DNA from: Nitratidesulfovibrio sp.
GTDB lineage: Bacteria; Desulfobacterota; Desulfovibrionia; Desulfovibrionales; Desulfovibrionaceae
NCBI RefSeq assembly: GCF_040373385.1
Contig: NZ_JBDXXH010000004.1
Span: 51,942 to 115,941, forward strand
DNA length: 64,000 nt
Direction: 5' to 3'
The position numbers were made by a program, and so were the translations under genes. Below the pieces are notes generated by a model. The model did no database searches and had not been told where the DNA came from. It worked only from the letters and a program-made list of their open reading frames with translations. How positions within the stretch are numbered: the first letter of the stretch is position 1; each line of letters starts with the position of its first letter. Shown piece after piece: positions 27,807-35,960 of this stretch.

Positions 27807-27990
27807 TCGGTGTCGCTCCAGACGTAGGAATGGTGCCGGGCATGTTCCGGCGGTGGATGTGCGGTATCGTGCGCGGTTGCCGTCCCCCTCAGGACGGTGC
27901 CCGGCGATGCCGGGCGTGGGCGCGTCGCCCGTTCGCTGCATAGTCAAACACGCGCGCGGACGCAAGTGGTGCTGCCGTTTTCGCCCGCGC

Positions 27991-28080
27991 GGCCCGATGC
28001 GGCCCGATGCGGCCCGATGCGGCCCGATGCGGCCCGATGCGGCCTGATGCGGCCCGATGCGGTCCGATGCGGCCCGATGC
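27991..28080. repeat. 10-bp tandem array, 9 units
   Basis: GGCCCGATGC is repeated nine times with only two single-base changes (units six and eight). It lies in the divergent spacer between fabD and rsmG. The near-identity of units suggests recent expansion and length variability between strains. Confidence 0.95.
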
Positions 28081-33003: not shown

Positions 33004-33666
33004 ATGCTGGATTACCAGATGCTGAACATGGACGATGCCGCCGCGCTGCTGCGCGCGGGACGGGTGGTGGTGTTTCCCACCGAGACCTTTTTCGGGGTGG
33101 GGTGCCTGGCCATCCATGCCGGAGCCGTTGACGAGGTGTACCGGGTGAAGCGTCGCGCCCACCGTCTGGCCCTGCCGATCCTCGTCGGCCATGTGGACCA
33201 GTTGCCGCAGGTGGCCGCCCCCATGGGCCCGGTGGCGGAAGACCTGGCCCGGCGGTTCTGGCCGGGGCCGCTGTCCATCCTGCTGCCTGCCGCACCCGGC
33301 GTGCCCGTGCCGCTTACCGGCGGCACCGGTCGCGTGGCCGTGCGCCTGACCCCGCACCCCGTGGCCCGCGAGTTGTGCCTGCGGGCCGGTGGGCCGTTGG
33401 TGGCCAGCAGTGCCAACATCAGCGGGCGCCCTGCCGTGACCCGTGCCGTGGACCTTGATGCGGAACTGTTGGCCGAGGTCGCCGGGGTGCTGGACCTGCC
33501 CCCCGCACCGCCCGGCGGGTTGCCCTCCACCCTGGTGGAAGTGCTGGATGGGGGCGGCGGCGGGGCCGGTAACGTTGTTGGCGGTGGTGTGCCGCGCCTG
33601 CGGGTGTTGCGGGCCGGGGCCGTTTCGGCGCAGGTCTTGTGCGATGCCGGGTATGCGCTTGCGTGA
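33004..33666 (+). CDS. L-threonylcarbamoyladenylate synthase (YrdC/Sua5 family)
   Basis: 220 residues with the YrdC fold: FPTETFFGVGC near the N-terminus, the K-R...S-x-N signature (VKRRAHRLALPILV and ASSANISGRPA), and FWPGPLSILL. The enzyme makes threonylcarbamoyl-AMP for t6A37 in tRNAs that read ANN codons. Residues 175-195 contain a Gly-rich stretch (VLDGGGGGAGNVVGGG) absent from most relatives. ATG 33004 is the first of three close ATGs, and none has a strong ribosome site. Whether it is TsaC or a YciO-type paralogue is not certain. Confidence 0.85.
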   Translation: MLDYQMLNMDDAAALLRAGRVVVFPTETFFGVGCLAIHAGAVDEVYRVKRRAHRLALPILVGHVDQLPQVAAPMGPVAEDLARRFWPGPLSILLPAAPGVPVPLTGGTGRVAVRLTPHPVARELCLRAGGPLVASSANISGRPAVTRAVDLDAELLAEVAGVLDLPPAPPGGLPSTLVEVLDGGGGGAGNVVGGGVPRLRVLRAGAVSAQVLCDAGYALA

Positions 33667-33912
33667 GCAGGTGGGGACAACCCTACCGGGAGTACAAAAA
33701 ATTTTTGCGGGACCGTGGCATGAAAATGGCCGCAAAACCGTACGGAACGGGCGCTGCACGACGGTGGCAAAGCGTCTGGCAAAAAAGTTGAACTGATTGC
33801 GCAAACGGCTCGTGCTGGCGTTTGATCGGGTGTTTGGGAAAAGTGTTGGAAAATCGGTAAAATACGTACACGGCGGAAGGCGGGATTGCATGGGGGCAGC
33901 CGTTGCCGGGCG
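33667..33912. other. Gene-free region upstream of orphan sigma-54 promoter
   Basis: This region contains AT-rich stretches unlike its surroundings. It has an inverted pair TTTTGCGG/CCGCAAAA (33704-33739) and a direct repeat GTGTTTGGGAAAA / GTGTTGGAAAA (33830-33853). These lie 60-210 nt upstream of the sigma-54 site, the usual range for enhancer-binding activators. No reading frame is supported. Confidence 0.5.
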
Positions 33913-33913
33913 T

Positions 33914-33930
33914 TGGCACACCGCTTGCTA
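33914..33930 (+). promoter_or_regulatory. Sigma-54 (RpoN) promoter with no coding gene downstream
   Basis: TGGCAC-N5-TTGCTA matches the -24/-12 consensus with exact spacing. Transcription would start near 33940. An intrinsic terminator follows at 33961, and the next gene is on the other strand, so this promoter appears to serve a short RNA. Confidence 0.75.
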
Positions 33931-33939
33931 CACCCTGAT

Positions 33940-33997
33940 CACCTTCCTTTCTTTGCAGAGAACCGGTCCTACAGGGGTGTGGGACCGGTTTTTCTTT
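33940..33997 (+). ncRNA. Candidate sigma-54-dependent small RNA (~58 nt)
   Basis: Between the predicted start point and the terminator T-run lies a short transcript. Its 5' end is pyrimidine-rich (ACCTTCCTTTCTTTG), able to pair with purine-rich ribosome-binding sites, and it ends in a terminator stem AACCGGTCC/GGACCGGTT. No start codon with a reading frame fits. The RNA itself is an inference from promoter and terminator positions. Confidence 0.5.
33961..33997 (+). terminator. Strong intrinsic terminator
   Basis: AACCGGTCC pairs with GGACCGGTT, with extra ACA/TGT pairs inside, followed by TTTCTTTT. It is about 300 nt after the YrdC-family stop codon and 20 nt after the sigma-54 start point. 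Confidence 0.9.
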
Positions 33998-34092
33998 TGT
34001 GCCATGTCTGCCGTCGTCGTGTACGGGCAGCGGTTTCCGTGACCCGGTGACCGTGTCCGGCCTTTCGCACGCAGGCACCCGGCCCGTTGTGT

Positions 34093-35274
34093 CTATTCAG
34101 CAATTTTCCCTGATATTCCGAGTAATTTCCACGTCATGTCCAGCACCGCCTGCACGGTGATGGCGGTCATGCACGGGGCCGTTGCGGCGTGCCCGGCGGT
34201 GCTGGCAGCCCCTTGTTCGCCGTGGATTTTTCCGTTGCCTTGCCCCCAACCGCAGGCAAGTTCGCGCAGGGTGGCGGAACAGGGGGCGCAGGCAAGCGGG
34301 CTGGCGAGCGGGGTGGCGCCGTGCGGGCACCATGACCCGGCGGGGGCCGGGCCGAACAGGGCGAGAACCGGCACGCCGTGCAGCGCGGCAAGGTGCAGCG
34401 GCCCGGAATCGTTGCCGATCACCAGCCGTGCGTGGCGCAGCAACTGCGCCAGTTCGTCGTGGTCGGCGGGGGCGACCACGGGCACTTCGCATCCCTTCGG
34501 CATCAGGTCGGCCCGGTCAAGGCCGCGCTCCAGTTCCGCCGGGCCGAGCACGTACAACGGATTGTACCCGGCCCGCGCCAGCGCCCCGGCCACTTCTGCG
34601 AACCGTCGGGGCGGCCACTGCTTGGCCCGGTGCCCCGCGCCCGGCACCAGCACCACGGTGCGCGAATCCGCGCCCTTCCAGCCGCCGAACAGCGTTTGCC
34701 ACGTGTCCTGCCAGCCCGCGTCCCAGCGGGGCGGCCAGGGCAGGGCGGCGGGACATGCCCGCGCAAGATGCTTCCGCAGTACCTCGGTGACGTGGCAGAT
34801 GCGCATGGCGGGTTCGGCTGCCCGATCACCCGTGCCTGCATCCCTGTCCGACATGCCCGCTCCGGCCATCAGGCAGGGCAGGGGCACCACGCGCGGGTGG
34901 GCGGCCACCGGCGCGCGGTCGAGGCAGAACCACGCCACCGTGGCTCCGGCCAGGGCGTCCGGCCAGACGGGTGCATCGGATTTGCCGTACAGTCCGTCCA
35001 GCGCCCGGCGCATGGCCGGGGGGCAGGGGGCGTAGCCCAGTGGGGCCAGCCAGCGCATGCGTTCCATGTTGCCCGCGAACAGCAGGCGCGGGGAGGCGCT
35101 TTCCTCTCCGCCTTGCGCCGCCGCGTGCTCTGGCGCTGTACTGTCCGGCCCCGTGCCGACCGGCCCGATACCCGGCGAACCCGCACCCCGCGCCAGCGCC
35201 AGCAGGGCGGGCCAGGCACACAGGAAGTCGCCCAGCGCGCCGTTGTGCACGGCTATCAACTTGTCACTTTTCAT
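34093..35274 (-). CDS. Glycosyltransferase family 9 (heptosyltransferase-like)
   Basis: 393 residues, beginning [22 protein letters not shown], the GT9 N-terminal strand and loop. The C-terminal nucleotide-sugar domain has [33 protein letters not shown] and [27 protein letters not shown]. Such enzymes usually add heptose to the LPS core on the cytoplasmic side of the inner membrane. It carries Gly/Ala-rich inserts between the two lobes (near residues 35-60 and 130-150) that are probably loops. It is not in an LPS gene cluster here, so the acceptor is unknown. Confidence 0.85.
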
Positions 35275-35429: not shown

Positions 35430-35960
35430 ATGGAACATCGCGTCCCCTGCCCGCACTGCGGCGGCCCCGTGGTCATGTACCGCAACCCCGCGCCCACCGT
35501 CGATATCCTCATTCACGATCCGGGGCGGGGCATCGTGCTCATCCGGCGGCGGAACGAGCCGCCCGGCTGGGCGCTGCCCGGCGGATTCATCGACTACGGC
35601 GAATCGGCGGAGGCGGCGGCGGTGCGCGAGGCCCGCGAGGAAACCGGGCTGGACGTGGAACTGACCGGCCTTGTCGGGGTGTATTCCGACCCAGGCCGCG
35701 ACCCGCGCCACCACACCCTCAGCGTGGTCTATGCCGCGCGGGTGCGCGGCGGTGGCGTTGCCGGATCTGCGACAGGGGATGCTGCTTCAACGGTGGCCGA
35801 TCCCGTTGCCGCCCCCATCGCAGGTGACGACGCGGCGGACGCCCGGTTCTTTGCGCCGGACGACCTGCCGCAACCCATGGCCTTTGACCACGCGAAAATC
35901 ATAGCCGACTGGCTGCGCGACCGTGGCCGCTGCCCGGAGCGCACGGGGGAAGGGGCCTGA
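35430..35960 (+). CDS. Nudix hydrolase
   Basis: 176 residues from ATG 35430. The Nudix box GGFIDYGES-x7-REAREETGL is complete (G-x5-E-x7-REVxEExGx). An N-terminal CPHCGG pair suggests a half zinc-binding knuckle. Members hydrolyse nucleoside diphosphates linked to other groups; with this domain layout ADP-ribose pyrophosphatase-like activity is possible but not shown. An Ala-rich insert (residues ~112-135) follows the catalytic region. It lies 157 nt upstream of glgA on the same strand. Confidence 0.88.

Follow-up and report, generated by a model that had tools for sequence, protein, structure and literature searches.

The window analysed here, a stretch of 64,000 nucleotides from Nitratidesulfovibrio sp., contains a sigma-54 promoter box followed closely by a strong stem-loop, and the question it raises is what such a promoter would transcribe and on what the product would act. 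The sequence-only reading had described the layout of a trans-acting regulatory RNA, and its account of the gene content is correct, with a glycosyltransferase gene antisense at 34093-35274 and the next plus-strand gene after the RNA (NUDIX) near 35430. The features needed for the argument are as follows.

33004 to 33666, plus strand: Sua5/YciO/YrdC gene (PF01300), the upstream neighbour, found in that place at all six orthologous loci.
33690 to 33706, plus strand: distal enhancer-like near-palindrome GAGTACAAAAAATTTTT, score 22.7, conserved in type A orthologs.
33776 to 33792, plus strand: proximal enhancer-like site CTGGCAAAAAAGTTGAA, score 14.1, weaker than the distal site.
33914 to 33930, plus strand: sigma-54 box, TGGCAC (-24), N5, TTGC (-12), an exact match with 14 of 16 columns invariant in 6 genomes.
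33941 to 33998, plus strand: predicted sRNA of about 58 nt; conservation begins and ends with it.
33941 to 33957, plus strand: single-stranded seed ACCUUCCUUUCUUUGCA, unpaired in the predicted fold and complementary to porin ribosome-binding sites.
33958 to 33998, plus strand: intrinsic terminator (hairpin 33958-33993 and T-rich tail), recognised from stem-loop, fold and conservation.
34093 to 35274, minus strand: glycosyltransferase family 9 (GT9) gene (PF01075), the antisense downstream neighbour, present in 6 of 6 orthologous loci, partial at contig ends.

The box at 33914-33930, TGGCACACCGCTTGCTA, has the TGGCAY-N5-TTGC pattern with the GG/GC spacing of sigma-54 promoters, and the pattern is conserved. 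No other site in the window comes within one mismatch of this string; when two mismatches are allowed, two matches are present compared with 4.28 expected, so that only the exact match is telling. TGGCACN5TTGCW occurs ten times in the whole genome, and the reversed-pattern control does not occur. Placing the start of the RNA 12-13 nt after the -12 C gives a transcript whose predicted fold leaves exactly the 17 nt of the 5' end unpaired, followed by a stem-loop (33958-33993) of 16 pairs with a 4-nt loop that runs into TTTTTCTTTT. The strong stem-loop with a T-rich tail noted earlier is present, starting at 33958 rather than at 33961. A terminator scan of the window finds 4 sites compared with 3.9 expected in shuffles, and the hairpin is thus telling through its strength and conservation rather than through the scan. 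No part of the window matches an Rfam family at gathering score, the best local match reaching 18.4 bits with 50 needed. Elsewhere in the window, at about 27950-28070, there is a short tandem repeat which in one frame translates into successive PDAARCGPMR units.

A search with positions 33820-34010 gave matches in 8 of 8 same-genus genomes, and the orthologous locus was found in six of these, with Sua5 upstream and GT9 downstream in all six; the two assemblies without a located ortholog are each in more than 800 contigs. Across the six genomes, 14 of 16 columns are invariant for the box, 5 of 11 for the spacer between box and RNA, 17 of 17 for the RNA 5' end (the count starting 3 nt past the box spacer), and 39 of 42 for the hairpin and T-run, compared with 3 of 60 in the adjoining upstream flank and 2 of 54 in the adjoining downstream flank. 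The comparison among relatives that the sequence-only reading had proposed thus finds promoter, 5' end and terminator nearly invariant between diverged flanks, and it bears out both the sigma-54 promoter and the short RNA with its intrinsic terminator. From this arrangement we infer that the locus is transcribed, that transcription depends on RpoN, and that it starts at or close to 33941.

The promoter had been called an orphan, a description that overlooks two things: the locus is one of three paralogs in this genome, and the family extends into other families of the order. The paralogs, type A (the window locus), type B (contig C15) and type C (contig C7), have the box and 5' end in common and differ in hairpin and neighbours. 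The type C paralog (L089:3360-3406) has a degenerate -12 element, CATGCA for TTGCT, and an intact seed, and a copy with its 15-mer is also found in G003, G004, G006, and G007. The box followed by CTTTCTT was matched in 62 of 297 Desulfovibrionales genomes, a count that includes at least 8 places judged by eye to be off-family (L016, L017, and L039, for example), and the reversed control gave one match. When 84,980 species were scanned, 40 stretches were returned, of which 32 come from Desulfovibrionaceae or delta-proteobacterial records (titles naming Desulfovibrio, Nitratidesulfovibrio, Halodesulfovibrio, Desulfovibrionaceae or delta-proteobacteria); the other eight are from unrelated taxa and were taken as chance. 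The box followed by CTTTTGC adds, among the matches listed, the genus g13, also g19, g26, g35, and g36, and the families f3 and f5. Two to three copies are present in 13 of the 14 member-bearing g13 genomes, mostly a few hundred bp apart among the matches listed. Clustered copies are seen in G120, G132, G154, G226, and others (L378, L379, L380, L383, L385), each with its own pair of enhancer-like sites, and their seeds now match the porin sites poorly. The family's neighbours vary by clade and include seryl-tRNA synthetase, PilZ, NifX-like, HDOD, arginase-family with panB, aroE, and glycosyltransferase genes; these differences between clades mean that the RNA is no leader of a single gene.

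Two copies of a near-palindrome, GTWMAAAAAATTTWWAC, are positioned upstream of family members (49 distinct), most commonly 142 and 89 bp before the box and 53 bp apart, the spacing at the window locus being wider. The scoring matrix was fitted on the 49 family upstream regions, the window locus included, and the same regions were then scored against a threshold of 13.15, set at the 99th percentile of the best scores obtained from shuffles; in this fitted set, 46 of 49 regions have two sites above the threshold. Among clades that did not enter the fit, 13 of 13 copies from g13 and 3 of 3 from f5 have two passing sites, and none of three copies from g6 does. Within the window, 33690-33706 and 33776-33792 are the only two sites scoring at least 13.15. 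The block GGCAAAAAAGTTGAACTG of the proximal site is kept in five of the six orthologs, with GACAAAAAAGTTGAACTG in its place in G003. The activator sites expected upstream of a sigma-54 promoter are present, by sequence only, as these paired near-palindromes. A direct repeat, GTGTTTGGGAAAA/GTGTTGGAAAA, had been pointed out as upstream of the promoter, and it does lie at 33830-33853, but it is lost in the ortholog alignment and its enhancer role falls with it; the two near-palindromes, not the direct repeat, are likely the enhancer sites. Another candidate, GTACGAAAAGTTCAA, is a second recurrent site (one mismatch) in four of four genus genomes and scored below 13 in three of them. The sequence ATTCAAAAAATTCTA, recurrent in four of four genus genomes, is the second type B site (G000, G004, G006, G007).

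The genome contains 46 strong matches to the sigma-54 activator domain, and the surroundings of 19 family loci (two of which are cut by a contig end or start) showed no enhancer-binding-protein gene out to about 8 kb. An activator gene adjoining the sRNA was considered and set aside, as such genes occur in the first locus set only at two query loci, L062, where the gene is about 5 kb from its sRNA, and L017, which is not a family member. An enhancer-binding-type response regulator (L096:373-1968) lies about 4.6 kb from the porin of the genome studied here, and no link between it and the site was found. Nor did the analysis yield any pointer to nitrogen as a signal controlling the sRNA.

The exposed 5' end had been described as complementary to ribosome-binding sites, and the porins of this genome fit that description. 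The ribosome-binding site GCAAAGGAAGGAAGG, 7 nt before the ATG of an own porin, forms 15 bp with the sRNA 5' end, one of them a G-U pair, and the duplex energies for the three own porins found (-26.2, -24.5, and -21.5 kcal/mol) are all stronger than any among 42 window genes used for comparison (best -20.2, median -11.3 kcal/mol). The sequence-only reading had suggested a search for pairing between seed and ribosome-binding sites; taken by itself, a G-U-tolerant 15-mer search in this genome is barely above its control (18 compared with 17). In five genomes the same search gives 127 places compared with 88 in the reversed control, ten of them the sRNAs themselves; the A-rich porin site recurs in all five genomes, and three other sites recur too.

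A blind test used a 16-mer complementary to the Desulfovibrio seed, with one mismatch allowed, in 50 Desulfovibrio genomes, and gave 64 matches compared with 10 in the reversed control, 30 of the 64 being the sRNA itself. The remaining 34 include 22 at the start of a porin gene (one of these, L226, consists of 30 residues where a contig ends and was assigned by eye), and 21 of the 22 are positioned as the ribosome-binding site. Exact non-self matches are porin ribosome-binding sites in 13 of 14 instances, the other preceding an unrelated 97-residue ORF. Of the 36 Desulfovibrio genomes that have the sRNA, 21 have a porin site within one mismatch, and of the 14 that lack it none has (p 8.9e-5), following reclassification of G192, G161, and G224 as sRNA carriers; before this the counts were 19 of 33 and 2 of 17 (p 0.0023). 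Common descent of the genomes makes these p values optimistic. The 15 of 36 sRNA-bearing genomes without such a site count against the porin reading. Porins in g9, g2, and g10 carry GCAAAAG-type sites though neither pattern found an sRNA there, reflecting either missed sRNAs or sites that exist without one. Targets were screened with these patterns and among the 42 window genes, and weaker additional targets are likely, since the seed resembles any anti-Shine-Dalgarno sequence. The locus has the properties of a trans-encoded sRNA, with its own promoter and terminator in an intergenic position (33914-33998) and the porin target on another contig (C3), and those of a base-pairing sRNA, with a conserved, accessible seed complementary to the target ribosome-binding site, the complementarity being poor in g13.

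If the seed acts on porin mRNA, changes in one would be mirrored in the other. The g6 seed has one C fewer (ACCUUC-UUUCUU), and a porin site has one G fewer (AAAGAAAGAAGG) in six of the eight sRNA-bearing g6 genomes. For the clades with the box and CTTTTGC, predictions of the porin sites were written down before looking. They proved true in two clades: all six f5 genomes have 14 to 16 nt of the predicted GCAAAAGGAGGAAGG(T), and both g36 genomes have GCAAAAGCAATAGGA, its CAAT insertion included. They were partly true in four: GCAGAAGGAGGAAG is present in the one of three f3 genomes with a porin match, g19 has an unpredicted 10-nt match, and g26 and g35 fit in part. The prediction failed in g13, where porin sites show CAGCAAAAG or less and the cognate seed ranks 8 to 13 of 14.

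The co-variation was also measured on a set of 66 porin starts from 35 genomes, a part of all porins from which those found by the 16-mer search were excluded against circularity, together with 15 clade seeds, one per clade (g1 being represented by type A and g6 by one Halodesulfovibrio member). At the clade level the centred energy of cognate pairs is -4.05, compared with 0.03 (sd 0.61) when permuted, and none of 20,000 permutations reaches it, p values of this kind being optimistic because the genomes share ancestry. The result depends on the centring of the energies: by raw energy the cognate seed is often outdone by a stronger foreign one, coming first of 14 in 16 of 35 genomes and second of 14 in the genome studied here. 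Of 200 shuffled seeds, at most two reach the cognate energy in 30 of the 35 genomes.

These patterns bear on a broader interpretation, that the RNA is a general translational damper whose 5' end mimics the anti-Shine-Dalgarno tail of 16S rRNA, the porins being merely its most visible targets. Such a role would suit an anti-Shine-Dalgarno-like seed that forms duplexes of up to -20.2 kcal/mol with ordinary ribosome-binding sites of the window, as well as the second CU-rich tract, CCTCCTCC, in the Desulfovibrio versions. However, the match reaches past any Shine-Dalgarno sequence (GCAAAAG...), 13 of the 14 exact non-self 16-mer matches are porins, and clade-specific changes recur in the porin site, CAAT in g36 among them, and we think a general damper unlikely.

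The enhancer-like site is not confined to the sRNA loci. In four genus genomes the site pattern has one further exact place in all four, upstream of an outer-membrane porin (NCBIfam DESULF_POR1, 608 bits), the one whose ribosome-binding site is GCAAAGGAAGGAAGG. A site scoring at least 13.15 is present in 67 of 105 porin upstream regions, compared with 76 of 2100 shuffles, and in 39 of these 67 regions the site is 110-170 bp ahead of the ATG. In this genome there is such a site upstream of one of the three porins, beside what appears by eye to be a sigma-70-like TTGCCA-N17-TAATTT. Because the near-palindrome lies upstream of many porins, the same protein that would act at the sRNA may act on the porin gene also. 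A second class of g6 porins (L260, L262, L264, L266, L268-L271, L274, L275) has the near-palindrome about 55-65 bp before the ATG, a position which suggests repression rather than activation.

The presence of this site upstream of both sRNA and porin genes, together with co-variation of the seed with porin sites, also argues against a main target elsewhere, either another mRNA or a protein, with the porin match a by-product of shared purine-rich sites. The screen extended to patterns and 42 window genes rather than to a full transcriptome, and the g13 porins match poorly, both of which leave some room for this explanation; we judge it quite improbable. That the hairpin is simply the Sua5 terminator or a leader element of a neighbouring gene, with an incidental box, would agree with Sua5 lying upstream on the same strand and with the sRNA directly preceding an arginase-family gene in many Desulfovibrio, but it deserves hardly any credence when the box and the 17-nt 5' end, useless to a terminator, are nearly invariant, the box-plus-RNA unit recurs beside unrelated genes, and the downstream gene here is antisense.

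The interpretation that we favour, and in which we have good confidence, is that type A is a sigma-54-driven, trans-acting, Hfq-independent sRNA whose 5' end pairs with the porin Shine-Dalgarno sequence and represses the porin. An enhancer-binding protein would bind the two upstream near-palindromes and, once bound, drive RpoN-dependent transcription of the RNA of about 58 nt. Its free 17-nt 5' end would then pair with the Shine-Dalgarno region of the DESULF_POR1 porin mRNA (GCAAAGGAAGGAAGG in this genome), keeping ribosomes off and lowering porin synthesis, with the remainder of the RNA serving as terminator hairpin and Hfq not used. What the DNA itself shows is a conserved promoter and terminator, paralogs, paired upstream sites, and a complementarity that co-varies clade by clade with the porin site; from these we infer pairing in the cell and repression as the sign of its effect. 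The trans-acting layout proposed earlier is thereby strengthened by comparison and acquires in the porin a best-supported target, none having been named before. The proposal of a chaperone-binding 3' end, in the Hfq sense, fares less well, as no Hfq was found in this genome (0 matches to PF17209, with 5 of 14 control genomes matching). We put forward more tentatively, at somewhat less than an even chance, that the arrangement is a Desulfovibrionales-wide, Hfq-independent circuit in which one sigma-54 activator acts both on porin genes, many of them with the near-palindrome upstream, and on a family of anti-Shine-Dalgarno sRNAs that shut off porin translation, seed and porin site co-evolving by clade; if true, this would be the order's counterpart of the enterobacterial sRNA porin switches, built independently on sigma-54.

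The accessible text of one report describes four sigma-54-dependent ncRNAs in D. vulgaris Hildenborough (PMC4641369), Dv_sRNA2 downstream of DVU0679 and the others at DVU0653, DVU2357, and DVU3282, and the function of one sigma-54 ncRNA of D. vulgaris is called unknown in the available part of another (PMC3333781). As described in these portions, they are likewise sigma-54-driven non-coding RNAs in a relative, with no function stated for them; two of them lie downstream of their own regulator gene, whereas no enhancer-binding-protein gene was found near the window family. One of them may be a member of the window family, the comparison being by description only. In a separate element (L086:3470-3680, from G000:C3:383969 on) a further exact sigma-54 box comes directly after a response-regulator gene and is followed by a C-rich stretch with repeated CCCCCC runs, beyond which an FMN riboswitch precedes a DHBP-synthase gene; the element resembles the D. 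vulgaris ncRNAs downstream of sigma-54 response regulators, unlike the window family.

The probable target is itself prominent. DVU0799 is described in the accessible portion of one paper as the major porin of D. vulgaris Hildenborough and one of the most abundant proteins of its outer membrane, probably essential and with a perhaps important part in sulfate uptake (PMC5686591), and it had the highest mutation score of the genes in evolved mutualism lines according to the part available of another (PMC8319347). Our literature search, with subscription papers mostly outside its reach, found no porin-directed sRNA in these bacteria and no post-transcriptional control of DVU0799. If a sigma-54 sRNA family follows the porin ribosome-binding site from genus to genus, these bacteria would have a way of repressing porins that needs no Hfq, the sigma-54 RNAs listed to date with no function would have a candidate one, and there would be a handle on outer-membrane permeability in organisms relevant to corrosion and souring.

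Among known systems, the enterobacterial sRNAs MicF, MicC, MicA, RybB, and OmrA/B repress porins, and the likeness is that of an sRNA over the ribosome-binding region of an outer-membrane porin mRNA; the window family differs in its predicted sigma-54 control, in a genome where no Hfq was found, and in the porin family concerned; the resemblance is one of mode of action. The Qrr RNAs of Vibrio are sigma-54-dependent and present in several copies per genome, and the family shares the sigma-54 dependence (predicted here) and the multiple copies, close together in g13 among the matches listed; the targets and the RNA are different, and the window is without a match at Rfam gathering score. CU-rich anti-Shine-Dalgarno sRNAs in other bacteria similarly have a pyrimidine-rich stretch able to bind ribosome-binding sites, whereas the motif described here also takes in porin-specific bases and varies together with the porin site.
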